DNA of 60,411 nucleotides from a virus: IMG/VR virus record IMGVR_UViG_3300009370_000029, positions 1 to 60,411 of that record; one strand, 5' to 3'. The position numbers were made by a program, and so were the translations under genes. The notes under the pieces are model-generated. The model was not told the origin of the DNA. It did not search any database and saw only the letters and a program-made list of their open reading frames with translations. Below are positions 3,843 through 59,137 of this stretch, piece by piece (the first letter of the stretch is position 1; each line of letters opens with the position of its first letter).

Positions 3843-4260
3843 AGAAACTATAGACTCCTTTACCCTCTTCTGAATACACCACTCCCTTGAGGTCAAACGT
3901 AGCAATTGCTCGCTGACATCCAATGCACGGTTTAGACAGCCCCCATATTAACGGGGTGCCCGGACCATCTTCGTGCTTAATGCGACAAACGTAAAGGGTC
4001 GCCTTCGAGAGTTGCTTCTCGGTTAGATGCCTGCGCGCAGTTCGTATGGTGTCCGTCTCTGCATGAAGAAAAATGGCATCTTCGTTTTTTGAATACTTGG
4101 CCTGAAAGGGGTGCGATCTCTTTTGATTAATGCCCACAGAAACCACTCGATTCTTGTAGACAATAGCGGCCGCAAGCCGCGCGCCCGTCGAGAACGAATT
4201 ACGATCTAACCCCTCGGCCACAACCGACAGAAGGTCAAGGACCTTCTCATGCTTATCCAT
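3838..4260 (-). CDS. Cytidine/deoxycytidylate deaminase-fold protein
   Basis: The 140-residue protein carries the zinc signature of the deaminase fold: HAE at residues 66-68 (LHAETDTI) and PCIGC at 111-115. These supply the His/Cys/Cys zinc ligands and the catalytic glutamate. The family hydrolytically deaminates cytosine-containing nucleosides or nucleotides; T4 has a dCMP deaminase feeding dTTP synthesis. This version is shorter than T4 Cd and the exact substrate is not readable. It ends inside the late promoter of the next gene and lies 6 nt downstream of the zincin gene, suggesting co-transcription. Confidence 0.75.
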   Translation of the reverse strand: MDKHEKVLDLLSVVAEGLDRNSFSTGARLAAAIVYKNRVVSVGINQKRSHPFQAKYSKNEDAIFLHAETDTIRTARRHLTEKQLSKATLYVCRIKHEDGPGTPLIWGLSKPCIGCQRAIATFDLKGVVYSEEGKGVYSFL

Positions 4261-4266
4261 AATATA

Positions 4267-4929: not shown

Positions 4930-5149
4930 TACATCCTCCTTGATATATTAAACTGGGCGGAAGGGGCGGGAAATGGAGGTGTACTTTCATACTTCCCCAC
5001 CCCTTCCGTTGCGCCGATGCTGACAGGAACCCCTTTACGATAATACCTAGGATATTACCAACCTGCCTTCCCAAAGCCGACTACTACGAATCGGCTTTCA
5101 CATCCTCTGCCTCTTAGAGGCAAAAGCATCGCGCAAATTTGTATTGCTC
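4930..5149. other. Intergenic region with two hairpins
   Basis: No gene is supported here. On the minus strand, downstream of the small membrane protein gene, the transcript would form TGCCTCT/AGAGGCA (5108-5122) and then AAAGCCGA/TCGGCTTT (5073-5098). The second hairpin ends in only three Us, so it is a weak terminator candidate. The rest is a GC-rich stretch without recognisable signal. Confidence 0.4.
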
Positions 5150-5332
5150 CTATTGATTAGTGGCGTTGCCCAGATTGGCACCTAGCCCATTAACTAGCTT
5201 GAACAAAAAGTCGGCAATTGCGTTGTCCGACGTGTTTGGTGTGAGCGTAGCAATTAAAGCAAAAGTGCCCACAACCTGTACTAATATTTCTATGTACTGA
5301 GGAAGGGCGGCTATAATAGCATTAAAGTCCAT
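5150..5332 (-). CDS. Small membrane protein
   Basis: The 60-residue protein has one hydrophobic segment (about residues 15-32, IEILVQVVGTFALIATL) followed by an amphipathic C-terminal half. Small proteins of this shape are frequent in environmental T4-like phages without assigned function. A good GGAG site lies just before the ATG. It sits between the hairpin region and a 2OG-oxygenase gene. A holin role is possible but nothing specific supports it. Confidence 0.6.
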   Translation of the reverse strand: MDFNAIIAALPQYIEILVQVVGTFALIATLTPNTSDNAIADFLFKLVNGLGANLGNATNQ

Positions 5333-17142: not shown

Positions 17143-17826
17143 TTAGGAATCAGGATTGTCGTATTCGGACTCATTTTGTTCAACGGCCACAAAGTATTCT
17201 GCCTTGTGTCCATCGAAATAGGCAATTCCCTTCGAGGAAATCTTTACCTTATAATCATCTGGGATCAATTTCAAGTTATCAATCTTGAGAACCATCTTGA
17301 ATGACGCACCAGAAGGAATTTCTCCGTCTAGCTTTACCTTGTAATTGTTCGATGTGCTGTTCTTGACATCTGTAGCCACAGCCAAGAGATATTCTCTTGC
17401 ATCATCCAACGTAATAACAAGATTGGGAAGCCCAAGAATGTTAGCCGCCTTTTGCAGTTTATCTAATTTGGTTTTAGGCAATTCAAACTCAACATCACCG
17501 TCACACTCCAGTTTCTTTGCCGGAACTGTAATAATGGTGTTCGGATCGGCATAAACATATGTCAATCTTGTGGCGTCTTCGACAATCTCAACTGCATTCT
17601 CTCCGAACTCTAGTTCTGGCGAATCAAACAGGCTCAACGTACCAAGGAACTGGTTCAGGTCATAGATGCAAAATGGAGTGTCAAATTTCTCTGCCACAGT
17701 AGCTAATGCAAGCAATGTCTTGTTTGGTGAAATTGTTTTTAAATTATGACCAGGCTTTACTTGAAGCCCGTTGTTAATGGCAGCAAAGTTTTGCAATACC
17801 AAAAGTGTGTCACTAGATAGTTTCAT
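17143..17826 (-). CDS. 45: gp45 sliding clamp
   Basis: The 227-residue protein has the T4 gp45 length (228) and gene position. Recognisable parts are LLVLQNFAAINNGLQVKPG at the N-terminus, IYDLNQFLGTLSLF and the C-terminal FVAVEQNESEYDN. The trimeric clamp tethers gp43 and is also the mobile activator of gp55-dependent late transcription. A consensus promoter lies about 85-115 nt upstream, inside the preceding gene. Confidence 0.93.
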   Translation of the reverse strand: MKLSSDTLLVLQNFAAINNGLQVKPGHNLKTISPNKTLLALATVAEKFDTPFCIYDLNQFLGTLSLFDSPELEFGENAVEIVEDATRLTYVYADPNTIITVPAKKLECDGDVEFELPKTKLDKLQKAANILGLPNLVITLDDAREYLLAVATDVKNSTSNNYKVKLDGEIPSGASFKMVLKIDNLKLIPDDYKVKISSKGIAYFDGHKAEYFVAVEQNESEYDNPDS

Positions 17827-17832
17827 TATGAA

Positions 17833-18135
17833 TCATTCCTTATCCTTGTTTTGTGAATCTATATACCGTTCGACATATTCGTCGTCACGACTAAAATGCA
17901 TCAAGAGTATAGTATAGTGTACCGCCTTGAGCAAGTCAAGTCTATTGCAACCTTTTTTCTTACCAAATCGAGCAAGATACTTCATCGCATTACCTTGGCA
18001 AAAAGGTACAGCCACATCAATGGAATGTAACAAGTCTTGAATTTGAAATTCATTCCTACCAACATAATGTTCACCATAAGTCGAATGAATATAGTCTTCA
18101 ATCTCCTTTAGGATCTCAGTCTCATCATATTTCAC
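17833..18135 (-). CDS. DUF3310-like small protein
   Basis: The 100-residue protein contains FCQGNAMKYLARFGKKKGCNRLDLLKAVHYT, here split as GNAMKYLARFGKKKG and LDLLKAVHYT, the signature of the DUF3310 family found in many phages. No catalytic role is established. It overlaps the glycosyltransferase-like gene (ATGA type) and contains the gene 45 promoter in its distal half. Confidence 0.75.
   Translation of the reverse strand: MKYDETEILKEIEDYIHSTYGEHYVGRNEFQIQDLLHSIDVAVPFCQGNAMKYLARFGKKKGCNRLDLLKAVHYTILLMHFSRDDEYVERYIDSQNKDKE
17911..17939 (-). promoter_or_regulatory. Sigma70-type promoter inside the DUF3310 gene, upstream of gene 45
   Basis: On the minus strand TTGACT (17934-17939) and TATACT (17911-17916) are separated by exactly 17 bp. 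The position suits a separate early/middle start for the 45-44-62-regA operon. Confidence 0.7.
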
Positions 18136-19163
18136 TTCTTGGCAGCCTTCTTCTTTTTCTTAGATCGGCGCTTTTTCATTTCTTCTCTTCTGCGCTCGGC
18201 TCTATTTTTCATTTCCTTATCTTGAGGAGGAGGAGGAGGAAGAATAGGAATAGGAGGGCCCGCCACAGGTGGCTTTGGAATTCCAGGATTCCATTGTTGC
18301 TGCCCTGCGGCTTGTACTGCTGGTTGATTAATCATTCCCCCATGCGAGGCATTAGGCACCTGCGAAATAGCTTGCATATTTCCAGAGAAATTGAAAGTTC
18401 CCACATGGACCATATTCATCCACGGGCACATCCAAACCTTGAGACCAATATTCCTTGACCATTGACAAAACATATAATCCTCTGAAAGATAACGATTCTG
18501 GTTCGGATCAATAACCGTATCAAAATATGCAGTAATTTTCCGCGAACCATCAAAGTGTTCCGAACGATTATGGTCGGGAGTGTACAATTGGTCTGGATAT
18601 GCATCTGCCCATTTTTTAAAAGCCTGCCTCTTAATCATCATGAATCCGGTGCCGCCTTCTAACACTTCGACAGGAGTACCCAAATGAATCCTGTCTGTTC
18701 CGCCAACAGGATTAAAAACATAGTCACCCACTAACTGCTCAAGCATTCCCGGATTTTCGTCTGCAAGTCCCGCCTTTACTGCGGCAGAAATTCTCTCCCA
18801 GGCAATACACTTCTTAGGATACGGACCGCACACAATATCATGTTCGTCATTCTCGTCCTCTTCATCTGACAGAGCAGCCAGACATAAAACATCATTTGGT
18901 GCAAACGATATGTCCGAATCAATGAACATAAGATGCGTGAATCCGCTTCTTAAAAATTCATCGACCAGATAGTTCCTCGCGCGCGTGATCAAACTTTCGT
19001 TAAACAAATAAAAGAATTTCATCTCGATGCCATGATGCAATGCCATGGCCTGTAAATCAATACAAGCCTTTGCGTACATACCATGACATTGCCCACCATA
19101 CATGGGAGTGGCCACAAAGATTTTCTTCTTTCGCATCTTTTCAATAGGGACTTCAATTTTCAA
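18132..19163 (-). CDS. Glycosyltransferase-like protein (GT-A fold) with basic proline-rich tail
   Basis: The 343-residue protein starts with a Rossmann-like IFVATPMYGGQ strand and contains HLMFIDSDISF, the DxD metal/nucleotide-sugar motif of GT-A glycosyltransferases, near residue 87, followed by GGTGFMMIKRQAF. Residues from about 300 are low complexity: a proline run and then an RRREEMKKRRSKKKKKAAKK tail, probably for binding nucleic acid or a partner. Possible roles are DNA-base or surface glycosylation. Start MKIE is preceded by a structured intergenic region. Confidence 0.7.
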   Translation of the reverse strand: MKIEVPIEKMRKKKIFVATPMYGGQCHGMYAKACIDLQAMALHHGIEMKFFYLFNESLITRARNYLVDEFLRSGFTHLMFIDSDISFAPNDVLCLAALSDEEDENDEHDIVCGPYPKKCIAWERISAAVKAGLADENPGMLEQLVGDYVFNPVGGTDRIHLGTPVEVLEGGTGFMMIKRQAFKKWADAYPDQLYTPDHNRSEHFDGSRKITAYFDTVIDPNQNRYLSEDYMFCQWSRNIGLKVWMCPWMNMVHVGTFNFSGNMQAISQVPNASHGGMINQPAVQAAGQQQWNPGIPKPPVAGPPIPILPPPPPQDKEMKNRAERRREEMKKRRSKKKKKAAKK

Positions 19164-19190
19164 TTCACAAATTCCTTATATAAAAATAGA

Positions 19191-19263
19191 GGAGAGGCGG
19201 CTCGCCTTATTGGGGGGTGAGAGGTATGGGTAGCAATTGCTGCCCATGGCTCACCGCCTCTCC
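19191..19263. repeat. Nested inverted repeats upstream of the glycosyltransferase gene
   Basis: An outer 10-bp stem GGAGAGGCGG/CCGCCTCTCC (19191-19200 and 19254-19263) encloses a hairpin ATGGG.AGCAATTGCT.CCCAT (19226-19247). On the minus strand the outer arm is followed by TCTATTTTTATA, so it could act as a terminator or attenuator between the 19311-19694 gene and the glycosyltransferase gene. The rest of 19164-19310 holds no gene. Confidence 0.55.
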
Positions 19264-19310
19264 AAAAAACACTCTCATAGTATATATGCTACTAAAACAA
19301 AAGATCCTAA

Positions 19311-19694
19311 TTAAAATGGCACTTCGTATAGATGCGAAGCCTTTTCTACTTCAAACTCAAGGTCTTCTTCTCGCGCAATGGCAAAATCTGCAATACTGTC
19401 AATTCGGAAAGACCGCCAGTCTGCTTTTTCCACATCAAACACGGATAGGACACTCAGGTTCTTCTCTCGTTTGGTGGCAGTTTCTGTATAATAATCCTTA
19501 TGCTCAGGAATGAATTCATTCTGGAGAGTACAATACATATCTCTCAGCGTTCCATCTTTCTTGGTAAACGTAACTTTCAGAATATCCACCTGAAGCATAT
19601 CCTTAATATAGTTACGTTTCTTTTCTGGCTTTAGCCCGTGATAATACTCGTTCATACAACTATTCAAATACTCGTCCTCTTCTTTGGCGTCCAT
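19311..19694 (-). CDS. DUF2693-like protein
   Basis: The 127-residue protein contains VTFTKKDGTLRDMYCTL and SVFDVEKADWRSFRIDSIADF, the hallmark of a family (DUF2693) seen in many T4-like phages. The small beta-barrel appearance suggests a nucleic-acid-binding fold, but no function is established. It has its own consensus promoter, so it is probably an early gene. Confidence 0.75.
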   Translation of the reverse strand: MDAKEEDEYLNSCMNEYYHGLKPEKKRNYIKDMLQVDILKVTFTKKDGTLRDMYCTLQNEFIPEHKDYYTETATKREKNLSVLSVFDVEKADWRSFRIDSIADFAIAREEDLEFEVEKASHLYEVPF

Positions 19695-19721: not shown

Positions 19722-19750
19722 AATATACAACACCAGACACTAAGTGTCAA
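19722..19750 (-). promoter_or_regulatory. Sigma70-type promoter for the DUF2693-like gene
   Basis: TTGACA (19745-19750) and TATATT (19722-19727) are separated by 17 bp on the minus strand, followed by an AAAGGAG ribosome site before the ATG at 19694. Confidence 0.75.
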
Positions 19751-19771: not shown

Positions 19772-20203
19772 CTACGCCTCAATGGCATAATTGGTTTCAT
19801 CTTTATCGTCCCTATAGACACTCTCGACTTCGATATTGCTAATGGCACGCGCAGCCTTTTCGCCGTACTTTTCTTCTACCTGTTCCTCAATAATCTTCTT
19901 TGCGGCACTTTCAAAAAGGGAAACTTCAACCTGAGTGAGACGATAATCGCCTTTGTGCTTGCAGTTCATGCACTCGATGGATAATACATTGGTGGACGCA
20001 TTACCCATTCTGTCCTTGAAGTTAAAGGCGTTTGGGTTCTTGCTCTCGCATTTAGAGCATATGATTTTCTTTCCAATAATCTTTCGCCAAATCTTACTAT
20101 TACTAGTCGCCCGGGCGACGGAACGCTCTAACGAAGTCTTGCCGGTGCCGTGCGTTGTTTTAGGTTTAGACGGTGGATCTATTTCGTGATATTCGTCATG
20201 CAT
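19772..20203 (-). CDS. Zinc-ribbon protein, array member 1
   Basis: The 143-residue protein has CSKC near residue 48 and IECMNCKHKGDYRL near residue 77, a two-knuckle zinc ribbon whose second half (CxxCxHxG) matches the paralogues at 21092, 22236, 22809 and 23207. The N-terminus is basic and the C-terminal third is an acidic helix. It is the promoter-distal member of the array (the operon reads from 25 kb down to 19.8 kb). The function is unknown; nucleic-acid or protein binding is the usual role of such ribbons. Confidence 0.65.
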   Translation of the reverse strand: MHDEYHEIDPPSKPKTTHGTGKTSLERSVARATSNSKIWRKIIGKKIICSKCESKNPNAFNFKDRMGNASTNVLSIECMNCKHKGDYRLTQVEVSLFESAAKKIIEEQVEEKYGEKAARAISNIEVESVYRDDKDETNYAIEA

Positions 20204-20211
20204 TTCTACTA

Positions 20212-20400
20212 TTAACTCCTTCTAAGAGACCTCTGCCTCGTTTTACAAAACGGGCAATTAAATGTCAGGACATCCCGTTCAAATATGTCTGATTCGATGT
20301 CCAAGGTTTCTACCTTCTCTTCGCGAATCCAATCCTGACATTTTTTACACCTCACCAATATGGGAGGCACATATACATCATTGTCAATATCAATAGGCAT
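20212..20400 (-). CDS. Zinc-ribbon protein, array member 2
   Basis: The 62-residue protein consists of two CxxC pairs (VRCKKCQDWI near residue 18 and FNCPFCKTRQ near residue 49) joined by an acidic loop, ending in a basic RRS tail. It is essentially a free zinc ribbon. Its ATG overlaps the end of the 39-residue membrane gene, so translation is coupled. Confidence 0.65.
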   Translation of the reverse strand: MPIDIDNDVYVPPILVRCKKCQDWIREEKVETLDIESDIFERDVLTFNCPFCKTRQRSLRRS

Positions 20401-20509
20401 TCAAAATTGCCTCAATGCCCACTCCAATAGTGGTGACTGCAAACACGGTACAGATAATAACACCGAGATAAACAAAAAGGGTAAAGGTTGTTCTATAGGG
20501 GAATCTCAT
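20390..20509 (-). CDS. 39-residue single-pass membrane protein
   Basis: This short gene encodes MRFPYRTTFTLFVYLGVIIC followed by TVFAVTTIGVGIEAILNAY, a positively charged start and one hydrophobic helix, so N-in orientation is expected. A strong AAGGAGAG ribosome site lies 5 nt upstream. It overlaps both neighbours (ATGA with the gene before, 11 nt with the gene after), which supports a real coupled gene. Confidence 0.65.
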   Translation of the reverse strand: MRFPYRTTFTLFVYLGVIICTVFAVTTIGVGIEAILNAY

Positions 20510-20730
20510 CGATACTCTCCTTTCTTTGACGACAAAGGAATGTTAATGGCTGGCACAGAAAGGTCGCCTACTTCGCCATCATTAACTTCTCGAATTTCTA
20601 CATTCAGGTTCTTCTTTGTCATTTCAACAACAATGACAAACTCATCCTCTACACGAAAAATATTCACATAGGGAAGTTCGTCAAGTGCCTGCCGACCAAG
20701 CACTTCTTCAAAATCAATCACATCACCCAC
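20506..20730 (-). CDS. Small hypothetical protein
   Basis: The 74-residue acidic protein begins MGDVIDFEEVLGRQALDELP and has a central beta-strand pair (FVIVVEM, NLNVEIREV). There is no cysteine pair, unlike its neighbours, and no recognised family. It abuts the gene on either side by 1-4 nt overlap, so it belongs to the same operon. Confidence 0.55.
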   Translation of the reverse strand: MGDVIDFEEVLGRQALDELPYVNIFRVEDEFVIVVEMTKKNLNVEIREVNDGEVGDLSVPAINIPLSSKKGEYR

Positions 20731-21095
20731 TACTGCGTTCCCCTTCCATCCTGTTCTTCGGGAATTGAAATAATCGCATCCACAACATCATCAAACTCAG
20801 GATCCACAATCAGACTCTCGATATTCCGATGAATAAACGAAAGGGCTGCATCCATTTCCTGCGCCAGAGTGTACAAATCTTCGCCATGCCCATGAGTGCT
20901 ATTAGCCAGATCCACCATTGCCTTCCAAACCTTTTCGGCCGGCTCCATGATTTCGTCTACTACTGTCTTTTTTTCTTCTGTCATTAGTGTATTGTATTCT
21001 CCACACATAAAACATTTGACGATAGGAAGGATACCAACATCTCCGTGTTTGGTTTCCTTGTCACACAGTTTACATAAAATAATAACGGGTTTCAT
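20730..21095 (-). CDS. Zinc-ribbon protein with helical tail, array member 3
   Basis: The 121-residue protein has ILCKLCDKETKHG at residue 8 and VKCFMCGEYN near residue 27, a compact N-terminal zinc ribbon, then an acidic mostly helical domain. Its ATG overlaps the preceding gene's TGA. The ribbon is closer spaced than in the main paralogue group, so it may be a separate lineage. Confidence 0.6.
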   Translation of the reverse strand: MKPVIILCKLCDKETKHGDVGILPIVKCFMCGEYNTLMTEEKKTVVDEIMEPAEKVWKAMVDLANSTHGHGEDLYTLAQEMDAALSFIHRNIESLIVDPEFDDVVDAIISIPEEQDGRGTQ

Positions 21096-21454
21096 TTTTT
21101 TACCTTATATGTTTTGATTGAATGTCCTGGAATCAATGGATTAGGACGAAGCACGATTCTTCCTTCATGCCCACAATGGCAAGCCAGTTCAACAGTTAGT
21201 TTTGAAGGATCCGTCAAACTATCTATAGTCGCCGGAGGTGACACCTCGACAGCACCCGACGGTTCCGACACCCAGCCCAATTTAATTGTCATTAACTCCA
21301 TATCAGCAGCCGTTTGATAGCTTGCACAGCAGGTTGTGCAGGTCATTTTCTTCTCCAGAAGGATGGACTTCACCAAGATGTCACGGTTCTCTTCCGGAGT
21401 CCCTATAACCCCCTGTAGGGTCTCAAAATAGTCTTTACTGGACATACTCTCCAT
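21092..21454 (-). CDS. Zinc-ribbon protein, array member 4 (core paralogue)
   Basis: The 120-residue protein shows the core pattern of the array: hydrophobic helix, KMTCTTCCAS near residue 37, a 50-residue middle, and LACHCGHEGRIVLRPNPLIPG near residue 96 (given here in parts: LACHCGHEG, RPNPLIPG). The CGH.G...NPL block recurs in members at 22809, 23207 and 23909. One of the second-pair cysteines is displaced (ACHCG), so metal geometry may differ. Confidence 0.65.
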   Translation of the reverse strand: MESMSSKDYFETLQGVIGTPEENRDILVKSILLEKKMTCTTCCASYQTAADMELMTIKLGWVSEPSGAVEVSPPATIDSLTDPSKLTVELACHCGHEGRIVLRPNPLIPGHSIKTYKVKK

Positions 21455-21547
21455 TCTTCTAAGTGCTTGATTTTAAAGGGTTTTCATGCCTTGGAGGATG
21501 CTCTCTCCAGGCACTTGTTCCGATACGCGATCTAAGCCCCGTAGGGC

Positions 21548-21775
21548 TCAGGAAGCCGCCCTACGCGCCGCAGAGCGCGCCCGTGAGGTCTCCCGCTCGC
21601 CGCGGGAGCGAGCGACCCGCAGGGAGGCTGTCATCACCGCGAGCGTTTTGGCGTCCGTGATATCCAGGAACAGACTCGTCAACTCAGCCGAGTCCAGATT
21701 CTCCAATTCTTGCCGGGCTGCGGACCGGGCCCGCTTCGCTTCCATAGTGAGTTTCTTACCTACATTCACATCCAT
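21548..21775 (-). CDS. Small helical, Arg/Ala-rich protein
   Basis: The 75-residue protein begins MDVNVGKKLTMEAKRARSAA and is almost entirely helical, rich in Ala, Arg and Glu. The gene is much more GC-rich than most of the window. It starts 3 nt after the stop of the membrane protein gene. The high GC produces long open frames on the other strand, so support comes mainly from tight packing in the operon. The function is unknown. Confidence 0.45.
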   Translation of the reverse strand: MDVNVGKKLTMEAKRARSAARQELENLDSAELTSLFLDITDAKTLAVMTASLRVARSRGERETSRARSAARRAAS

Positions 21776-21778
21776 TTT

Positions 21779-22030
21779 CTATTCCTCCTCTTCCTCTTCC
21801 TGTTCGTGCGCGACCAACTCTAGACCGTATCCATTCACGGCCTTGTACGCCAACCGTTCACACAATTCGTCCTTCCGTTCTGGACGAAGGAAGGCATAAA
21901 TGATTGCAAGAAAAACGACAATCCACACAGCCACAAATGCAGCCTTTGTGGGACCTACTGCCACGGTCAACCAAATCCAGAACATCCATTCCGGGATCGC
22001 CAGGGCTAGTTTGGGTGCTACTCTTTTCAC
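21779..22030 (-). CDS. Membrane protein with two hydrophobic segments and acidic tail
   Basis: I start this gene at GTG 22030, 7 nt after an AGGAG site; longer frames would run through the upstream gene. The 83-residue protein has hydrophobic segments at about 8-25 and 30-48 (FVAVWIVVFLAIIYAFL) and ends in a run of glutamates. It is probably an inner-membrane protein. No family is recognised. Confidence 0.55.
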   Translation of the reverse strand: MKRVAPKLALAIPEWMFWIWLTVAVGPTKAAFVAVWIVVFLAIIYAFLRPERKDELCERLAYKAVNGYGLELVAHEQEEEEEE

Positions 22031-22041
22031 TATGTGTTCTC

Positions 22042-22236
22042 CTAAATGTGATACTTCTTGGACGTAGAAATCCGAGACTTTCGCGTCGTCTTTTGGCGAG
22101 GGCCCTTCTTGGACTTCGCCGTAACAGGGGTTCCATAATGCTGCGGAAATCCCCCAGGGCGGCAATGTGTAATCTCGCCCCCGCGCGCGAGGAACTCCTC
22201 TACCGTTTCCAATTTGATTTCGTTTTCTTCGGACAT
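22042..22236 (-). CDS. Small protein with basic C-terminus
   Basis: The 64-residue protein has an acidic first half (MSEENEIKLETVEEFLARGG) and a strongly basic second half (KSKKGPRQKTTRKSRISTSKK). EFLARGG..TxC is reminiscent of short phage/plasmid peptides of unknown role. It touches the zinc-ribbon gene before it by one base and the membrane gene follows after an AGGAG site. Confidence 0.55.
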   Translation of the reverse strand: MSEENEIKLETVEEFLARGGEITHCRPGGFPQHYGTPVTAKSKKGPRQKTTRKSRISTSKKYHI

Positions 22237-22805
22237 TATTTAGTTTTCTCCTTTTGTGTTTGCTTCAGCCATTTCTCACCAAGGATGGCTTTCTGATGCG
22301 GCCATCCGCTCACCCCAGGCTTACCCTTCATATAAACAACTCTACCAAGATGCCCGCAACTGTGGCACCTCACAGTTGTATTCAATTCATGACCTAGAGT
22401 ATACAACCTTTCTACGTTCATGTCAAGTCTATTCTGTTCAATTTCAAAAACTTTCTTGAAATTGGCAGGGCTCCGAATTTCCCTGAGCATCCTAATCATT
22501 CTAGGCAATCTGATCTGCTCAAATCCCATGGCTGCCACCATGTGAAAGAAACAATGATGCGCGTCATTGATCCCCCCGGCAATGAGATCCCCTTCCATGT
22601 ATGTGGAGGCCGAAATGGTTTTTTCTCTCTTATGGAAACCCTCGGCAAACCATTTCTGCTCATTCATGCCACACTTGCCACACTTGACCTTTTCCCGTAG
22701 GGTCATGCGGATCGTCAGCCCCACGGTCATGGCCGTGTTGTCTGTTCTCTCTTTTTTTTCTGTCATTGGTTTCCACCCCTTAATTCTCTCGCCCCGCGGC
22801 CGCAT
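22236..22805 (-). CDS. Zinc-ribbon protein, array member 5 (core paralogue)
   Basis: The protein has VKCGKCGMNEQKW near residue 41, a long helical middle and VRCHSCGHLGRVVY near residue 160. This is the CxxCG...CxxCGHxG pattern of the array with a larger insert between the pairs. The 5' end is uncertain: ATG 22805 has GGAAG 8 nt upstream, while ATG 22766 (MTEKKERTDNTAM) has AAGGGGTGG upstream and would give 176 residues. The middle contains LRMIRMLREIRS-type helices that could dimerise. Confidence 0.65.
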   Translation of the reverse strand: MRPRGERIKGWKPMTEKKERTDNTAMTVGLTIRMTLREKVKCGKCGMNEQKWFAEGFHKREKTISASTYMEGDLIAGGINDAHHCFFHMVAAMGFEQIRLPRMIRMLREIRSPANFKKVFEIEQNRLDMNVERLYTLGHELNTTVRCHSCGHLGRVVYMKGKPGVSGWPHQKAILGEKWLKQTQKEKTK

Positions 22806-22808
22806 CTA

Positions 22809-23207
22809 TTAATCTTCCGCGCTCATGAAATCCCTGAACCAGTAGCACAGCATCTCTTCGTCTGTGTACATATTCTCATCCCCGGGCTGATAGTAGGGCT
22901 GATTGGTTGCAATAAGAAAAGGATTCGACTTGATACGAAAATTTCCGACATGCCGACAAAACCCACAGAGCAACTGGAGTGTGATACCTTCGGGTTCGTC
23001 ATATCCCATCCAACTCTGGATCGAAAGTTGTGATTTGATTTTGTACTCGGTAGTATAGCATTTGCCGCATTGTGAACACTTGGATTTCAACAGAAAATCA
23101 TACACCAAGCTCTTGCGTTCGTAATACTCAGGCCCGCGCGAAGCTTCGCCGCCGTGCGGCTTTTCGTCCAGAATACTAATTCCGCCCATAGATTTACTCA
23201 CCTTCAT
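22809..23207 (-). CDS. Zinc-ribbon protein, array member 6 (core paralogue)
   Basis: The 132-residue protein has FLLKSKCSQCGKCY near residue 46 and LLCGFCRHVGNFRIKSNPFL near residue 85. The spacing and the final NPF block match members at 21092, 23207 and 23909. The ATG at 23207 overlaps the preceding stop (TGATG); an upstream in-frame TTG is less likely. A binding role for nucleic acid or host protein is only inferred. Confidence 0.7.
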   Translation of the reverse strand: MKVSKSMGGISILDEKPHGGEASRGPEYYERKSLVYDFLLKSKCSQCGKCYTTEYKIKSQLSIQSWMGYDEPEGITLQLLCGFCRHVGNFRIKSNPFLIATNQPYYQPGDENMYTDEEMLCYWFRDFMSAED

Positions 23208-23536
23208 CAAGCGCCTCGCACCTTCAACGGGTTATCCGGAAACTGATAGATTCCGCCATGCCCACACATTCTACAATCCAGGTCGACGCTCAACTGGTCT
23301 CCATCGCCGCCAATCCATCGTGTCACAACCAACTGGTCCCATAGCATCATGTTCGACGGAGCAGGAATCAACTTGTGCCCACATTGCGAACACACAACCT
23401 TGCCGACGAGCAATCCTAGAACGATGTTCTGGCGATATACTTCCTGGCGCGACCAATTCTCCGAGTGAAGTCTTTTGGGCATATCAACGAGCCTTCGATA
23501 GGGGTTAGGATACATAGGGTATTTCAATTCTTCCAT
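23207..23536 (-). CDS. Zinc-ribbon protein, array member 7 (core paralogue)
   Basis: From ATG 23536, which has GGGAG about 8 nt upstream, the protein is 109 residues. It has GKVVCSQCGHKL near residue 49 and LDCRMCGHGGIYQFPDNPLK near residue 90, the clearest form of the array consensus. A longer frame upstream is rejected because it would cover the micro-ORF at 23541. It overlaps the next gene by TGATG. Confidence 0.7.
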   Translation of the reverse strand: MEELKYPMYPNPYRRLVDMPKRLHSENWSRQEVYRQNIVLGLLVGKVVCSQCGHKLIPAPSNMMLWDQLVVTRWIGGDGDQLSVDLDCRMCGHGGIYQFPDNPLKVRGA

Positions 23537-23540
23537 GGTG

Positions 23541-23621
23541 TCACTCCCAATACATAAACAGAAAATAAGCCAGCCAACCGCCGACCCCAAAACCGACACA
23601 AAATCCGAGAAAAAACATCAT
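23541..23621 (-). CDS. 26-residue membrane micro-protein
   Basis: The frame MMFFLGFCVGFGVGGWLAYF followed by LFMYWE is a single hydrophobic helix with glycine zipper-like spacing. Its ATG overlaps the stop of the gene before (TAATG), so it could be translated by coupling; there is no independent strong ribosome site. It fills the only gap in this part of the operon. It could be a spurious frame. Confidence 0.4.
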   Translation of the reverse strand: MMFFLGFCVGFGVGGWLAYFLFMYWE

Positions 23622-23905
23622 TATGCCGTCACCAAAGATGCTTCGATGTTCCGGCTTCTACATTTCGAGCAACCGAGCGGCTTCGGAATCCCCGAATTCT
23701 GGGTGTACACCTTTTTACAGGTGTTGCAGTTGACCCGATAGAAAACGGTTTTTGTTCCGTCTGCATTGGCTAGCAGATTCATCCGAAGAGTGTGGATTGC
23801 AATATCCAAATCTTGCGTCAGAGTAAAATTGGTGGAGAACATGTTCATCTTCCGAAGAAGGTCCTCCATCTCTGCCAGTAGCGTGTTGACTGTGGTTTCG
23901 TCCAT
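23621..23905 (-). CDS. Zinc-ribbon protein, array member 8
   Basis: The 94-residue protein has an N-terminal amphipathic helix with leucines and a C-terminal ribbon VNCNTCKKVYTQ (residue 69) and LGCSKCRSRN (near 79-88). The knuckles are close together, like a rubredoxin-type zinc ribbon, and unlike the long-spacer core group. It is spaced 3 nt from the upstream member. Confidence 0.6.
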   Translation of the reverse strand: MDETTVNTLLAEMEDLLRKMNMFSTNFTLTQDLDIAIHTLRMNLLANADGTKTVFYRVNCNTCKKVYTQNSGIPKPLGCSKCRSRNIEASLVTA

Positions 23906-23908
23906 TTC

Positions 23909-24382
23909 TTATTCACCATCCTTTACAATCTGATAGGTGCCAATGTTCTGTTCAAAAAAATCGCTGTCGCCCATGAGGGGATCCGGACGGATTTGCAAAT
24001 TCCCAGTCCGCTGGCATTCAAGAGTTTTGCAAACCAAAGTGACATCCAGCATGAAACCTTTTCCATTCCCGAAGATGTTCTCATCCTCGCCGCGGTCCTC
24101 GTACTGGACCCAGGACTTGACCCACACCGTATCGGAAGCTCTCTCTCCCCATGCGCGTGCGGGATGCCATTCGTTCTTTTCATGTGCACCGCAACCTGTG
24201 CACCTGACGCGCCCATGAAGGAGACGATAGACGCGACCCTCGGCCACATGGACGGACTGCCCTGTTCCAGAAGTCCGCATTTTCACACCAGGCTTATCTC
24301 GCCAATTCTTGCTATTCGCCACGAATTCCTTTGCCGCACCGGGGTCTCGCACCCAATTCTTTTTCGGTTCCGTCGTCATCAT
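23909..24382 (-). CDS. Zinc-ribbon protein, array member 9 (core paralogue)
   Basis: From the ATG pair at 24382/24379, after a GGAGGAG ribosome site, the protein is 157 residues. It has GRVRCTGCGAHEK near residue 63 and LVCKTLECQRTGNLQIRPDP near residue 122. The second pair is CxxxxC rather than CxxC, a variation on the array theme, followed by the same ..N..P(D/N)PL block. The first knuckle sits in the same context (LLHGRVRC) as in member 7 (LLVGKVVC). Confidence 0.65.
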   Translation of the reverse strand: MMTTEPKKNWVRDPGAAKEFVANSKNWRDKPGVKMRTSGTGQSVHVAEGRVYRLLHGRVRCTGCGAHEKNEWHPARAWGERASDTVWVKSWVQYEDRGEDENIFGNGKGFMLDVTLVCKTLECQRTGNLQIRPDPLMGDSDFFEQNIGTYQIVKDGE

Positions 24383-24387
24383 TATTA

Positions 24388-24705
24388 TTACTCCTCCTCC
24401 TGAAATGTCCCGCCACACTCACAGCAGAGCGCACACCTCAGACAAATTTCACAAATCCCATCGGGGTCGGATTCGTTTCCGCCGCACCGCCGACAATGGA
24501 TGCAGAATTCCGTCTCCAGGCAGATATTCTTTCTGCTCAGACACTCCGGGTTTGTCTTCCAGGGGCGAATCCCAGCCTGGCTGAGAGCCTCGTCGATGAT
24601 GCCCATTTCCTCGCTCCCCGAGGGAACCATTTCACGGATCTCCAGCAGAGCCTCTGCAAGGAACCCATAGTTGTTGCTGTTTTGGTTTCTCATTCTATTT
24701 CTCAT
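24388..24705 (-). CDS. Cysteine-rich zinc-ribbon protein, array member 10
   Basis: The 105-residue protein ends with a dense cysteine block: CIHCRRCGG, then CEICLRCALCCECGG, giving at least two possible zinc sites. The N-terminal 60 residues are helical and acidic. Its last codons (GAG repeats) also supply the GGAGGAG ribosome site for the next gene. The function is unknown. Confidence 0.6.
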   Translation of the reverse strand: MRNRMRNQNSNNYGFLAEALLEIREMVPSGSEEMGIIDEALSQAGIRPWKTNPECLSRKNICLETEFCIHCRRCGGNESDPDGICEICLRCALCCECGGTFQEEE

Positions 24706-24714
24706 ATAAGATCT

Positions 24715-25086
24715 TCATCCTCCCATAATCAAGGGCTGCAAATAATGTGCAAGATGGGAATTCCGCAACTTGCAGAGCGCGCGGCGTTCCCAGTAACTAA
24801 CCATGCTATCCGACTTTCCAAGGATTTCCCCAACTTTCTTTTGGGTCATGCCCTCGAAAAAACGCATCCTGATGATTTTCTCTTCGTCATACGGAAGCAA
24901 CAGGATCATATCCTCGATTCCAGAAACCATTGCTTCTTCGTCGTAGTCCTTGTACACCGTTTCCTCGGGAATGACATAATCATTCAGGACCGTCCGAGAA
25001 TACTCGGCAAAAAGATTCTCTTCCTTGGTGGTGGTGAAAGGATTCTGTTGCAACTGAATCAATCGTCGTGCCAATTTGGAATTCAT
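24715..25086 (-). CDS. Sigma-region-4-like helix-turn-helix regulator
   Basis: The 123-residue protein contains YDEEKIIRMRFFEGMTQKKV followed by GEILGKSDSMVSYWERRALC, which reads as sigma-70 region 4 or a LuxR/ArpU-type helix-turn-helix (recognition helix near residues 95-108). No region 2 is present, so it is unlikely to be a full sigma factor. It may bind -35-like DNA or contact RNA polymerase. It heads the zinc-ribbon operon, which makes it a candidate regulator of that set. Confidence 0.7.
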   Translation of the reverse strand: MNSKLARRLIQLQQNPFTTTKEENLFAEYSRTVLNDYVIPEETVYKDYDEEAMVSGIEDMILLLPYDEEKIIRMRFFEGMTQKKVGEILGKSDSMVSYWERRALCKLRNSHLAHYLQPLIMGG

Positions 25087-26059: not shown

Positions 26060-26088
26060 AGTATACCTCAGATCGTGGGGGATGTCAA
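26060..26088 (-). promoter_or_regulatory. Strong sigma70 promoter (family copy 1)
   Basis: TTGACA (26083-26088), 17 bp, TATACT (26060-26065) on the minus strand, with flanks CCC before and GAGG before the -10. It is almost identical to copies at 27782 and 30344. Confidence 0.85.
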
Positions 26089-26517: not shown

Positions 26518-27744
26518 CTAGAACGGCGTCAGGTCTTCTCCTTCCTCGGTGCGAGGCGCAGCATCCGCAGCTTCGGCGGCGTCTGACCCATCCTCGCTTG
26601 ACGCATTATCGTCAACCTTTGTATACAGATCCATGAAGGAGGATTTCGTCTCCTCGTCGAACCGGTTGAGGCAGTACGTGATGGCCTTCAGGCGATCCGC
26701 CCAAATGCCGTACGCTTTCGCGATGTGGACGAGCCGTCGAGTCGCGATGACCTCATCCACGCCGCCCTCGTAGAAGGTTTTGCGGATAATGTCGGCCCAG
26801 GCGACCAGCTTCTCGGCAAAATCGTCATCCGGGCGACCAGCTGAGGTCAGCTCCTTTTTGACGATTTTCCGCTCGACGGCCATCGAGGGATATTCCTGCT
26901 CCATCGTGATCGGAAACCGTTCGAGCATGGCTTCATTCATGATGTTGGTTCCGACGAAGCGGCCATCATCCGAGCCCTTGCCCTTGGTGTTCGCGGTTGC
27001 GAGGATCGTGAAGCCGGGAGCCGGTTTCACAATTTCATTGATCTTTTTGAGAAGGATTGGCTTTCCTTCGAGGATCGGCTGAAGGCACATGAGTTTTTCA
27101 TCGCCGAGGTCGACCTCGTCCAGGAGCAGCACAGCCCCACGGCGCATGGCCTCGACCACGGGGCCGTCGAACCACACGGTTTCACCGTTGTGGAGACGGA
27201 AACCACCCAGAAGGTCGTCCTCGTCCGTCAACTTGGTGATATTGACGCGGAAAAGCTCGCGCTTGGCTCGCGCGCAGGCTTGCTCGACCATCAGGGTCTT
27301 GCCGTTGCCGGAAAGCCCGGTGATGAAGGTCGGATAAAACATCCCCGACCCGATCAACTGGGCGACATCCTTGAAATAGCCGAAAGGCACGTAATTGTCG
27401 AATTTCGCGGGGATCGCGCACTCGGTCAGGCTCGAGGCTTTCGCGAGAACCACGGGATCCACAGCGGGCGCAGCCGCGATGGGCGCAGGGGCCGCAGGTG
27501 CGACGGGAGCCGCGACCGTAGGCGCGCTGGGCGCAGGCGTTGCAGCCGCTCCCTCGACGGGGATGGTGAACCGTCCGCGACCAGCGCGGAAAGTCTTATC
27601 ATTGATAATCCACCAGGGGCGGGTCGCGCCTCCCATGGATTCGCAGATAGCGTCAATCTCGGGATATCCGACGACTGACCCTGCGGGATGACCGAGCGCC
27701 GCGGCGGCGTCGACCCATGCACGTTGTTTCTCTTTGAAAATCAT
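26518..27744 (-). CDS. cobS: CobS/MoxR-like AAA+ ATPase
   Basis: The 408-residue protein has an N-terminal domain with PWWIINDK, an Ala/Pro-rich linker (residues about 70-105) and a MoxR-type AAA+ core: Walker A GLSGNGKT near residue 145, LLLDEVDLGD as Walker B and ATANTKGKG as sensor 1. CobS-like ATPases power cobalt chelation with CobT in cobalamin synthesis, and phage homologues are common in marine T4-likes. Paired with the VWA protein upstream it probably forms a MoxR-VWA type chaperone complex; the target is unknown. The gene is markedly GC-rich. Confidence 0.8.
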   Translation of the reverse strand: MIFKEKQRAWVDAAAALGHPAGSVVGYPEIDAICESMGGATRPWWIINDKTFRAGRGRFTIPVEGAAATPAPSAPTVAAPVAPAAPAPIAAAPAVDPVVLAKASSLTECAIPAKFDNYVPFGYFKDVAQLIGSGMFYPTFITGLSGNGKTLMVEQACARAKRELFRVNITKLTDEDDLLGGFRLHNGETVWFDGPVVEAMRRGAVLLLDEVDLGDEKLMCLQPILEGKPILLKKINEIVKPAPGFTILATANTKGKGSDDGRFVGTNIMNEAMLERFPITMEQEYPSMAVERKIVKKELTSAGRPDDDFAEKLVAWADIIRKTFYEGGVDEVIATRRLVHIAKAYGIWADRLKAITYCLNRFDEETKSSFMDLYTKVDDNASSEDGSDAAEAADAAPRTEEGEDLTPF

Positions 27745-27781
27745 GTTCTATGTGGTTTCCTTCATCTCAAGTAACAGAGGG

Positions 27782-27810
27782 AGTATACCTCAGCCCCCAG
27801 GCAATGTCAA
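27782..27810 (-). promoter_or_regulatory. Strong sigma70 promoter (family copy 2)
   Basis: TTGACA (27805-27810), 17 bp, TATACT (27782-27787), giving a leader of about 30 nt before the CobS-like ATG. It is preceded by a T-run and the palindromic element at 27821-27903. Confidence 0.85.
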
Positions 27811-27820
27811 GGGTTTTGAC

Positions 27821-27903
27821 AAAAAAGATTCTTCAATGAAATCAAGCACTTAGGGCACTTTCCACCGTAAGTGCTTGAAATCATTGATGAATTTAGTTTA
27901 ACA
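27821..27903. repeat. Palindromic intergenic element, copy A
   Basis: Arms CAATGAAATCAAGCACTTA (from 27834) and TAAGTGCTTGAAATCATTG (from 27868) enclose a 15-nt loop. The segment TTAGGGCACTTTCCACCGTAA is the reverse complement, with one mismatch, of the loop segment of copy B at 30390-30465. On the minus strand the hairpin is followed by a six-T run, so it could also act as terminator for the CobT-like gene. Confidence 0.75.
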
Positions 27904-27919
27904 TCGGTCATGTGGGGCC

Positions 27920-30337
27920 TCACGAGGAGATCAGCTCCGTGAACTTTCGGAGGACGACTCGATTCCGCAGCTTGCCCTTCGAGGTCGACCGGAATGCGCG
28001 AGAAATGTCGGATTTCTTGGCTCCGACCAACTCATCTCCGAGACGCTCCTCGACCTCATCCTCGTTGCCGAGAATCATGTAGTGCTGGTCCCAGCCTTCG
28101 GGCGAATCCTCGATGGTGAAGCCGCCTTCCTTCTTGGCTTCCTTCCATGCAGCATTGGCTTCGGTCTCGACCGTCTGCCAGTCGTTCCGATCAGTATGTG
28201 CATTCTTGTAGGCGTACTTGAATCCGCTAGCCTTGGGGCTGGTGACATACATATTCACGACCTTAGAGCCAGTCCGAAGCCGTACAATCTCCAGCAGCGC
28301 AGGGAACTGGCCGCGCCCGTGATCGATCACAAACTCCTTGTGGGACTTCCGCTCGCGCAGGATGACCCGAGCCGGACCACCGTAGCGGTTGCGGCTTGCA
28401 TCCGAGTTGTGATAGGAGTTGAGGTTCCCACCGCATCCGTCAGTCAGGAAGACGGTGTTAACAATCTGAACCCTATTATCAGCACGGAATTTGTTGACAA
28501 TGGGGATCGCTGTAATCACAGCCTCGGAGAGCGGCGTGCCGCCCAGCCCGACCCAGCTGGGAACGGGGAAGCTGACGGACGCTCCGCGAGAGTAACCGTG
28601 ACCGAAGCCACCGCGCAACATGATCAGGGACAGGAGCATGTTCTGGAAATCGCTCTTGGTGCCCTTCGATCCAGCGAGGTGCAGCAGGTTGAAGTATTCT
28701 CGGCGAAAGGTGGCATCACCAGTCTCCAGGTGATTCTCATGCATCCGATCCTTGCAGACCCGACCATTCTCGGACCACAGACCCTTGTCCGCAGAGTCGG
28801 AGAAGCCGTAGACATCGAAGGGAATGTTGACCTTTTTACAGAAAAGGACGAGGTTCAGGATCTGCCCCAGCGTGTCCTCCATGTTAGAGGACATAGAGCC
28901 AGACCAATCCACGAACATCACCAGCCCATGGTTCTTACCATCAGCGACATCCGTGATTTTCTTGAAAAGATCATCATTCCATTTGTAAGAATGAATCTTG
29001 GCCATGTCAAGCGTCCCAGACCGTGCAGTCGTGGAGCGACGGTGCGAGTCCGCAGCCTTTCGCATCTCGAATTCCTTAACCAGGTAATTGATAACCTTGC
29101 CGTTATCACGCCGGAAGGAAGCAAGGGCTTTCTTGGCATCGTCGAGGGACGACATCTTGTATTTTTCGAGACTCCGGAGCTGGGCCGCGAAGATCTTAGC
29201 ATGAGGGATGATGATCGTGTCCAGATCGAAAGCCGCATCCTTGGGGATCTGCGCGTAGAGGGGATCCTCGTGAGAGGCATCCGTGTTGACCAGCTTCTCC
29301 TCGTTTTTACGCTGGGCTGCATCGGTCTCGGACCACGGGTCGCCCTGGGTGCGTCCATCGCTTCCATCAGTGTTGCGACCGGAGCCAGTCTCATCCGCTT
29401 TGCCGTCGCCGGAAGTGGGATCGCTATCCGAATCATCCTTGTCGGAGCTGTCCGCATCGGTGTCAGCCGATCCAGCCTCAGCCTCGTCCTCGGACTCATC
29501 GGAGTCGGAGCCAGAGCCCTCACCGTCCTCGGTGTCATCGCCGTCACCATCCGAGTCGGAACTATCATCGGAGGTGTTATCTCCGTCCTCATCATCGGAA
29601 GAGGACGAACCGTCCGAATCCTCGTCGGATTCATCGTCGTCGGAGGGCTCGAAACCCTCGCCCATCTCGCCTTCCTCGTCGGAGGGCTCGTCCGAGCTAG
29701 GACCGTAGTTAACATCGTCGGACGAATCCGTCTCGGCCATCTGGTCCTTCATGAGGTCCCAGAGGTCGGAAGCGATGGACTCTACATCAGCCCAGGACTC
29801 AGCCGCAGCCGTGCGATCCACGAAGGGCTGCTCCTCGTCCGTGAACTTGACGCCCATGGCCACGCCACCCTTGAAGTGCATGTTAATCCGATCGATCAGA
29901 CCGAATGAATTAACATCCCGTCCGTTGAGACCGAAAAAATCGCGATCCAGGAGCTCCTTGTAGCCCTGGGTGAAAGCCTTGCGGCCTCCCGGAAACTTCC
30001 GTTTCATCTTTTTTTCGATGCGCGCATCCTCGATCACATTAAGGAAGCCCTTGAAATTGGGACCCTTGGTCTTGTCGGATACAGCACCGTGCCACCCCGC
30101 GAGCGGAGTAAACAGAGCATGACCGTCCTCGTGCATCACCAGGAGGTCGTAAATGTCTTCGGAGATCCCAGTCCAGTTGGGCAGGATCAGGATGCGATCC
30201 TTAAGGTCGAAGGCTGCGGTCGTCGCATCCGCGCGGTGCTCGATGGAGATGTCCTCGGTCGCCAGGAGCTTGGCGAGCCGTGATTTGGACTCTGCGGAGA
30301 TCGCATGGATGTCTGCCTTGAGGTGTTTTTCGATCAT
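27920..30337 (-). CDS. cobT: CobT-like protein: HExxH domain, acidic linker, VWA domain
   Basis: The 805-residue protein has an N-terminal zincin-like motif HEDGH (residues 69-73) with IEDARIE near 101-107 as likely third ligand. Residues about 205-350 are a very Asp/Ser/Glu-rich linker. The C-terminal VWA domain has the MIDAS motif DWSGSMSS near residue 480 and a later LTDGCGG. CobT-like VWA proteins pair with CobS/MoxR ATPases, here the next gene. The promoter's -10 ends about 7 nt before the ATG and no ribosome site is visible, so a leaderless mRNA is predicted. The gene is GC-rich. Confidence 0.8.
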   Translation of the reverse strand: MIEKHLKADIHAISAESKSRLAKLLATEDISIEHRADATTAAFDLKDRILILPNWTGISEDIYDLLVMHEDGHALFTPLAGWHGAVSDKTKGPNFKGFLNVIEDARIEKKMKRKFPGGRKAFTQGYKELLDRDFFGLNGRDVNSFGLIDRINMHFKGGVAMGVKFTDEEQPFVDRTAAAESWADVESIASDLWDLMKDQMAETDSSDDVNYGPSSDEPSDEEGEMGEGFEPSDDDESDEDSDGSSSSDDEDGDNTSDDSSDSDGDGDDTEDGEGSGSDSDESEDEAEAGSADTDADSSDKDDSDSDPTSGDGKADETGSGRNTDGSDGRTQGDPWSETDAAQRKNEEKLVNTDASHEDPLYAQIPKDAAFDLDTIIIPHAKIFAAQLRSLEKYKMSSLDDAKKALASFRRDNGKVINYLVKEFEMRKAADSHRRSTTARSGTLDMAKIHSYKWNDDLFKKITDVADGKNHGLVMFVDWSGSMSSNMEDTLGQILNLVLFCKKVNIPFDVYGFSDSADKGLWSENGRVCKDRMHENHLETGDATFRREYFNLLHLAGSKGTKSDFQNMLLSLIMLRGGFGHGYSRGASVSFPVPSWVGLGGTPLSEAVITAIPIVNKFRADNRVQIVNTVFLTDGCGGNLNSYHNSDASRNRYGGPARVILRERKSHKEFVIDHGRGQFPALLEIVRLRTGSKVVNMYVTSPKASGFKYAYKNAHTDRNDWQTVETEANAAWKEAKKEGGFTIEDSPEGWDQHYMILGNEDEVEERLGDELVGAKKSDISRAFRSTSKGKLRNRVVLRKFTELISS

Positions 30338-35218: not shown

Positions 35219-35464
35219 CTATATGTATAAGGCTAAAAGATAGGCTCCTACTCCAAAAAACGTGATATCCAATAATCTGTCCTTCAGGTGCAAATTGTCC
35301 GCCTTTCGCCATTGTTCCCACTCGCGGATAAATCCCATGATTAATCCCGAGGCTACAACTGAAATGGTGCTTCCAGGAAATAGCAGTACAGGGAGCAAAA
35401 CCAAGACGGCATAGACTGCATGACCTGTTTGGTCGATTAGTTGCTTTTTTAAGTATTCTTTCAT
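35219..35464 (-). CDS. Small membrane protein with two or three hydrophobic segments
   Basis: The 81-residue protein has TGHAVYAVLVLLPVLLFPG (about residue 13), a middle segment TISVVASGLIMGFI and a C-terminal ITFFGVGAYLLALYI. An REWEQWRK charged loop separates the last two. This topology is compatible with a class I/II holin, but the family is not recognised. Its ATG overlaps the protease-gene stop. Confidence 0.6.
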   Translation of the reverse strand: MKEYLKKQLIDQTGHAVYAVLVLLPVLLFPGSTISVVASGLIMGFIREWEQWRKADNLHLKDRLLDITFFGVGAYLLALYI

Positions 35465-36471
35465 GCTGTCACAATTTCTACGCCGAAAGTGTCTAGGACC
35501 GTCTCTATTGGGCTAAACACGGTGATGGTGTCCGATCCTGCAAATAATAGTCCAACAACCTCGTTGTTGTCATTCAGGACTACACTGCCTGAGTCGCCAC
35601 CTTGGCAGTAGCCATCTGAAATGATTTGATTTTCAAACAGCACCGCACCTTTGCCTATTCCGTAGTCTACAAGTATATCAACATTTGTCTGGATGACCTT
35701 GCCTGTGGTCAGGCCTGTAGTCCTTCCACTTTTCTTAACTTGAAGCCCAATCTGTTCGCCATGAGCCCAGCCAGTGGGAATGCCTACTTCTAGGATTTCA
35801 GGAGAAACATCAATCCCATCAACAGGCACAACAGGAGCAGCCAAGGCTCCATCAAAAAGGTTAGGCGACAAGTCTTCCTCCTCTTCACAGAATATGCCGA
35901 ATAGCGCACACAGGAAATTCTTAATCAATGCAAGGAACCCATCCTCTTCTGGTTTGCCTTTGTCAAAACGAATGGGTTCAAAGTGTTCCAAGGTTGCAAT
36001 TTTGTTGGCCAACGCCACACCCCCATCGTGTGGCCCAGGCTGTAGGATTATGTCTCCCTTTTTGCCTGCATTGGTATGCGCCAGGACGTGATTATTACTA
36101 AGAATGAAATTATCAGTCCCATCTGTTACCATACACCCAAACGTCCCAGCCGTGATGCTTTGATGCCCAATGGACACGCCTCCTAGAGCAGGGCGAACTC
36201 TGGATTCGCGTAACCCCACTCCAGATGTGCTAAGACGGAGGGGGAGAGCATTGATCTTGCCTGTTTCTATGACATCAGTCTTGACGCCATCTATCTCGTC
36301 TGGAATCAATGCAGATTTACGCAATTCGCTCTTAGGCAATTTCTTCTCGACAAGCACAGAAATGCATGGTTCGTCTGTGTCTACTCCTCCTGTATTTTTA
36401 TTCCCATACCCAACACCTATCACATTCTGTTTCTTTAGGAGTTTTCTTCTATCTTGTCTGGCAGTGTTCAT
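35461..36471 (-). CDS. Trypsin-like serine protease
   Basis: From ATG 36471, which has CGGAG 8 nt upstream, the protein is 336 residues. It has FILSNNHVLAHT with the catalytic His (near residue 125) and QGGDSGSVVLND with the nucleophile Ser (near residue 298), the order of S1-type proteases; the Asp is probably in the LFDGALAAPV segment. An acidic loop with two cysteines interrupts the middle. No signal peptide is present. It could be a virion maturation or anti-host protease. Confidence 0.75.
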   Translation of the reverse strand: MNTARQDRRKLLKKQNVIGVGYGNKNTGGVDTDEPCISVLVEKKLPKSELRKSALIPDEIDGVKTDVIETGKINALPLRLSTSGVGLRESRVRPALGGVSIGHQSITAGTFGCMVTDGTDNFILSNNHVLAHTNAGKKGDIILQPGPHDGGVALANKIATLEHFEPIRFDKGKPEEDGFLALIKNFLCALFGIFCEEEEDLSPNLFDGALAAPVVPVDGIDVSPEILEVGIPTGWAHGEQIGLQVKKSGRTTGLTTGKVIQTNVDILVDYGIGKGAVLFENQIISDGYCQGGDSGSVVLNDNNEVVGLLFAGSDTITVFSPIETVLDTFGVEIVTA

Positions 36472-36475
36472 GGTG

Positions 36476-36805
36476 TTATGCTCCGAATGATTCGCCACAA
36501 CCACATGTGGTTGCAGCATTAGGGTTGTCAATATGAAATCCTGTGTCCATCAAGGAATCAGCATAGTCCAGGTATATTCCTGTGAGATACAGCGCACTCT
36601 TTTCATCTACTACAATTCGTATTTCACCATCGGTTATGATGTGATCCTTCTCCTCGTCAATTTTATCATCAAAGGCTAGATCATATCTCAAACCAGAACA
36701 CCCACCACCAATGACGCTAATCCGTAAAGGATGATTTGCGGGCTTTTCCATCTGCTTTAGATGATACTTTATCATTTCTGTTGCCTTAGGCGACACGTCT
36801 ATCAT
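36476..36805 (-). CDS. A-type Fe-S carrier (IscA/ErpA/HesB family)
   Basis: The 109-residue protein has VIGGGCSGLRY with Cys36 and CGCGESF with Cys101 and Cys103, the three cysteines that hold a 2Fe-2S or 4Fe-4S cluster in A-type carriers. Host ErpA/IscA pass clusters to apoproteins. HesB-like genes are known in marine phages, probably supporting host or phage Fe-S enzymes. It overlaps the tail-spike gene's stop by 4 nt. Confidence 0.88.
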   Translation of the reverse strand: MIDVSPKATEMIKYHLKQMEKPANHPLRISVIGGGCSGLRYDLAFDDKIDEEKDHIITDGEIRIVVDEKSALYLTGIYLDYADSLMDTGFHIDNPNAATTCGCGESFGA

Positions 36806-59128: not shown

Positions 59129-59137
59129 GTATTTATA
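59129..59137 (-). promoter_or_regulatory. Late promoter TATAAATAC of gene 22
   Basis: TATAAATACAATTAG is on the minus strand at the end of gene 21, upstream of gene 22 and its AAGGAG site. Confidence 0.8.

Follow-up and report, generated by a model that had tools for sequence, protein, structure and literature searches.

Clustered, diverged paralogues of a small predicted zinc-ribbon domain in a variable region of an uncultured T4-like phage

We analysed a 60,411-base linear virus record (IMGVR_UViG_3300009370_000029; this whole stretch is the window below), recognisable as a fragment of an uncultured T4-like phage, in which ten small genes with paired cysteine knuckles are gathered between positions 19,772 and 24,705. 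Judged by profile comparison, six of the ten are paralogues of one domain, a predicted zinc ribbon. With a probability of about 0.4, we read the cluster as a lineage-specific expansion of this new domain, whose copies would be early proteins acting as protein-binding adaptors or inhibitors of host targets.

Six of ten clustered genes share one domain

The ten genes all lie on the minus strand and are named here by their lower coordinates: 19772, 20212, 20730, 21092, 22236, 22809, 23207, 23621, 23909 and 24388. Among non-overlapping open reading frames (ORFs), paired cysteines occur in 9 of 12 inside the region versus 3 of 69 outside it (Fisher p = 1.7e-7). The original prediction for this DNA had described a tandem array of ten; the ten genes are present, but four non-ribbon genes (20506, 21548, 21779 and 22042) are interspersed among them, so that the genes form a cluster and not a strict head-to-tail array.

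Homology was assessed by scoring each gene with a leave-one-out profile hidden Markov model (HMM) and comparing the result with 500 shuffles that kept every cysteine in place. Six genes scored 36.0 (19772), 64.4 (21092), 23.6 (22236), 52.4 (22809), 43.2 (23207) and 20.0 bits (23909), values reached by none of the 500 shuffles in any of the six cases; for 22236, the best shuffle attained 18.1 bits. For 20212, 20730, 23621 and 24388, the gene's own score was reached by 40-216 of 500 shuffles, which places them outside the core family. The five paralogues named in the original prediction are therefore confirmed, while 19772 raises the count to six. The six are not drawn from separate known families; the remaining four are not related to the core, but they likewise lack a known function. 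The core members are as follows (contigs carrying relatives bear labels such as L003).

19772..20203, minus strand: core ribbon member, 143 amino acids (aa), CSKC ... CMNCKHKG, without NPL end; orthologue at L003:2386-2811 (40% identical)
21092..21454, minus strand: core ribbon member, 120 aa, second knuckle C-x-C-GHEG, RPNPL end
22236..22805, minus strand: core ribbon member, 189 aa, with an insert that puts the knuckles about 100 residues apart
22809..23210, minus strand: core ribbon member, 132-133 aa, CSQC ... CGFCRHVG ... NPF; AlphaFold2 model
23207..23599, minus strand: core ribbon member, CSQC ... CRMCGHGG ... NPL; likely start 23536 (109 aa)
23909..24418, minus strand: core ribbon member, CTGC ... 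C-x4-C-QRTG ... DPL; probable start 24382 (157 aa), preceded by a strong Shine-Dalgarno sequence

The six-sequence alignment of the suspected core has five invariant positions (four Cys, one Gly), and across 14 aligned domains the four Cys and the distal Gly of the GHxG motif are invariant. Identity to the first aligned member is 15-22%, which marks the copies as old. The closest pair is 22809/23207 (z 10.2), and several other pairs are connected through the profile alone. The second knuckle, first described as C-x2-CGHxG or a near variant, has an unusual range of lengths: C-x-C in the 21092 lineage, C-x2-C in 22809, 23207 and 19772, C-x4-C in 23909 and, among the relatives, C-x10-C (L118) and C-x15-C (one of the L011 copies). 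The L117 copy has about 30 residues beyond the usual number between its knuckles.

Predicted fold

The AlphaFold2 model of the 22809 domain, built from a 12-sequence alignment, has block means of the predicted local distance difference test (pLDDT) of 86-97 and places in order a helix (26-38), a knuckle, a helix (54-60), three strands (61-67, 75-81 and 87-92) and a helix (96-101). A 21092-lineage domain from L011 gave the identical order of elements (mean pLDDT 84.5). The general plan of the domain would comprise an N-terminal helix, the first knuckle, a short helix, a beta strand often with a terminal W, a further beta strand, the second knuckle as C-x(1-15)-C-GHxG, another beta strand and an NPL/NPF cap. 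The pattern of cysteines predicts one zinc per domain.

Relatives and copy number

Relatives were found by profile and pattern scans of viral (metagenomic) contigs, two of which (L115 and L116) duplicate L003 and L096. Seven contigs besides the window carry core copies: at least two on L003, at least three on L011 (where the contig end truncates one), one on L014/L119 along with a weak second, and one found on each of L096, L016, L117 and L118, several of these counts being lower bounds owing to contig edges. On the contigs that include gp45, the position is that of the window, with the ribbon genes upstream of both gp45 and the glycosyltransferase-like gene. No core ribbon was found on L005, which spans CobS to gp45, nor in the corresponding regions of Stenotrophomonas phage DLP6, Caulobacter phage Cr30, Sinorhizobium phage phiM12 and Rhizobium phage RHph_I1_18. 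Copy number among related phages therefore varies, from zero to six, and this range, together with a second local expansion in L011 (a pair identical at 37 of 83 residues), bears out the proposal that one domain has duplicated locally and diverged.

A small tree places 21092 with the copies from L003 and L014, those of L096 and L011 being nearby (weak support), and 23207 near its closest relative, on L118; 19772 forms a pair with the second copy of L003 (100%), and support elsewhere is mostly low. The 21092 lineage is the most widespread (L003, two copies on L011, and L096). Since these groupings run across phages, several ribbon lineages seem to be older than the split of the phages that carry them. 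In four relatives, tRNA genes are found within the interval or close to it. Genes of the cyclic-phosphate receiver type also lie near ribbons, on L014 (5560-5922; PF20274, E 2.3e-26), on L096 (120-422) and on the reverse complement of L117 (3722-4129).

Divergence and expression

The ribbons diverge faster than the flanking core genes. In the comparison of the window with L003, identity is 40-43% for ribbon orthologues, versus 88% for gp44, 82% for gp45 and 68% for the glycosyltransferase-like protein; between the window and L011, the values are 52% for a ribbon and 86% for gp44. Overall, orthologue identity is 40-52% for ribbons as against 86-88% for gp44 and 65-82% for gp45. The selection for variety that had been suggested is compatible with this contrast (40-52% against 65-88%), but relaxed constraint would give the same picture.

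Ten near-consensus sigma70-type promoters were found on the minus strand, where 0-2 were expected, and those at 27810, 26088, 22426, 19750 and 17939 flank the cluster or fall inside it. Three of them are listed here.

26060..26088, minus strand: sigma70-type promoter, upstream of the gene run that enters the cluster
22398..22426, minus strand: sigma70-type promoter, TTGACA-17-TATACT, within the 22236 gene
19722..19750, minus strand: sigma70-type promoter, just past the cluster and ahead of the WYL_2 gene

T4-type late sites (TATAAATA) occur on the minus strand at 59137, 57772 (ahead of the capsid gene), 44526, 33228, 5385 and 3842, and there is no TATAAATA on that strand between 5,385 and 33,228. 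The sigma70-type promoters and the lack of a late site in this stretch point to early or middle expression; by analogy with T4 biology, the cluster would be transcribed in that period by the host polymerase. The promoters at 27810 and 26088 additionally share an extended ccc-TTGACA ... ctgagg-TATACT beyond the sigma70 hexamers.

Comparison with known families and systems

The core members gave no convincing match in Pfam, PHROG, NCBIfam, PADLOC or PDB sequence searches, and by these searches the domain is covered by no curated family. No Pfam model of the TFIIS/RPB9/RPAB4 ribbons came above its cut-off, the best being RPAB4 against 22236 (E 0.0091, below the gathering score). Among annotated phages, megablast gave no match, nor did tblastn with 21092 and 22809. 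When 84,980 genomes were scanned with a pattern for cellular homologues, the 71 matches looked chance-like on profile check; the best candidate, L166 (E 0.0013), was a 42-residue frame without the first knuckle. L008, with CGHDG and an NPT end, was also set aside, as a baseplate-type protein.

The nearest precedent is Bacillus phage G, in which Iyer and colleagues described a lineage-specific zinc-ribbon expansion of about 35 copies, suggested to be transcription factors or structural DNA-binding proteins (PMC7824862). Part of that family (gp32, 34, 35, 37 and 46) forms a local group within positions 1-50,000 of phage G. The view that no described system has this layout was accordingly too strong, as phage G has about 35 ribbons, some of them locally clustered (PMC7824862). 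Both phages carry many diverged, partly clustered copies of one small ribbon, but the phage G family (that of YP_009015343.1) is a separate one, with another C-terminus and in another host and phage group; scanned against phage G gp29-gp52, the core-ribbon HMM gave E 2.1 for gp32 and a best value of E 0.057 for gp29, which lies outside the gp32 family. The window cluster is thus a new family but an already known kind of expansion. As in the hyperplastic regions of T4-like phages, conserved replication genes enclose a variable block, and relatives carry tRNA genes; unlike in those regions, the block is dominated by Cys-knuckle proteins. With its six coexisting paralogues and a natural series of copy numbers, the cluster establishes a new family of small proteins and is suited to a question left open for phage G, namely why one tiny zinc domain should be multiplied.

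Possible functions

Protein binding appears to us the most likely function, and nucleic-acid binding its main rival. In this reading, the cluster lies in a hypervariable early/middle region of a T4-like phage and each paralogue would have a separate partner; RNA polymerase and defence enzymes are examples of possible host targets. The scaffold would be kept in shape by the conserved cysteines together with the GHxG/NPL cap, and the choice of partner would depend on the variable second-knuckle loop and on inserts. We favour this reading because of the early context, the variable copy number, the fast divergence, the variable loops on a fixed scaffold and the lack of a shared basic face: core domains range in isoelectric point from 4.5 to 9.4, and their alignment has no conserved basic run, which speaks against a common nucleic-acid-binding surface. 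Also in its favour are the confidently predicted fold, the homology of the six members and the L096 fusion of a core ribbon with one of the 20212 type. Several points weigh on the other side. Nucleic-acid binding is very common among zinc ribbons, and the solved structure that comes nearest, the ribbon of NrdR, is a DNA-binding one; relatives with one copy or none indicate that such phages do not need the full set; relaxed constraint may be the cause of the fast divergence; and zinc binding is itself predicted from the cysteine pattern. Should the members prove to have different host targets, this scaffold would reveal how a frame of four cysteines is adapted to new partners. A broader version, which we consider rather unlikely, would make the region an early toolkit of modular design: T4-like phages would duplicate and diversify the ribbon scaffold, and graft other Cys knuckles onto small helical proteins, so as to hit several host proteins together, and their set of copies would record host range and defence content.

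It is possible, though doubtful, that the ribbons are instead small DNA- or RNA-binding regulators, that is, transcription or translation factors with a different site for each paralogue. The best PDB match of both AlphaFold models is the N-terminal zinc ribbon of NrdR, 9a6n_B (probability 1.00 and 0.98; E 0.066 and 0.11, not significant), NrdR-like and TFIIS-type proteins are among the BFVD matches, and a sigma region 4 protein adjoins the cluster. Neither model, however, had a Foldseek match with E < 0.001, any zinc ribbon would show such likeness to NrdR or TFIIS, and the core domains (isoelectric points 4.5-9.4) have no conserved basic residues. A basic DNA-binding strand is a feature of NrdR, whereas the window ribbons have neither its RRRR strand nor its ATP-cone (no Pfam match) nor any sequence match to it. 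The phage G ribbons provide a precedent for regulators (PMC7824862).

We think it quite unlikely that the paralogues are Lar-like counter-defence proteins, each of which would counteract a restriction enzyme or some other enzyme of defence. Variable early phage regions are rich in counter-defence genes, restriction alleviation proteins appear among the BFVD matches, and the small phage proteins of the Lar-like PHROG 5558 have a similar two-knuckle ribbon layout, weakly matched by 19772 (E 0.048 at full length; best E 0.013). Every such match is below significance, however, and PHROG 5558 was matched by 1 of 14 members; the window domain is longer, with a helix and the NPL cap, no Lar model was among the Pfam matches listed, and PADLOC gave nothing convincing.

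Least probable is that small, easily folded domains merely duplicate and drift as filler of a hyperplastic region with little selected function, as relatives without copies (L005, Cr30, DLP6, phiM12) and the tRNA and other small variable genes of the same interval might suggest, since the invariant four Cys and distal GHxG Gly, the persistence of the 21092, 23207 and 19772 lineages between phages and the intact state of all reading frames argue against it.

Other genes in and around the cluster

The remaining Cys-knuckle genes, all outside the core by the shuffle test, are the following.

20212..20400, minus strand: second, unrelated ribbon family, 62 aa, CKKC ... CPFC
20730..21095, minus strand: small helical protein with an N-terminal CKLC ... 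CFMC knuckle pair
23621..23905, minus strand: small protein with a CNTC ... CSKC pair
24388..24705, minus strand: small protein with a Cys-rich C-terminal tail

Relatives of 20212 occur on L096, L119 (13132-13290) and L117 (z 8.7-12.8; 0 of 300 shuffles), and on L096 both domains are fused in a single ORF (3892-4467), where the 20212-type ribbon is attached to the core ribbon's end. Over its helical part, 20730 is similar to an L003 protein (z 11.3) that has neither knuckles nor that N-terminus, and the N-terminal part of 24388 matches the L014 protein at 5090-5275 (z 30.8), which stops ahead of the Cys-rich tail; unrelated small proteins of this region thus gain or lose Cys modules. The 23621 protein has a weak match to PHROG 18044 (E 4.6e-4), a family of unknown function.

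Assignment of the window to the T4-like phages draws on gp43, gp44, gp45, gp41, UvsX, UvsW, gp46/47 and the major capsid protein, all readable among its ORFs. Its gp43 is about 52% identical to those of T4-like cyanophages, and this identity and the gp45/gp44 neighbours annotated in Cr30 and phiM12 mark its replication genes as T4-type. The cluster sits between two flanks, with a sigma protein directly upstream.

26518..30337, minus strand: upstream flank, CobS-like AAA ATPase and CobT-like acidic protein, named by reading the sequence; its gene 27920 has no Pfam match
24715..25086, minus strand: small sigma-70 region 4 protein (PF04545, E 4.9e-12)
17143..19694, minus strand: conserved downstream flank, with WYL_2, glycosyltransferase-like protein, DUF3310 and the gp45 sliding clamp (Pfam and relatives)

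An initial scan with the sigma protein found no relatives; the window holds a second sigma gene, for a gp55-like late sigma factor (52719-53246, minus strand). Elsewhere, an 855-residue Lys/Arg-rich protein without a Pfam match is encoded on the opposite strand (41299-43866, plus) in a stretch of strong AT skew, and a trypsin-like protein (35461-36531, minus) has an N-terminal segment like plant NAL1_N, just under the cut-off. The gene for an outer-membrane porin-like protein without a Pfam match (44600-45784, minus) resembles a gene on L096 (7716-8735) that comes after gp45.

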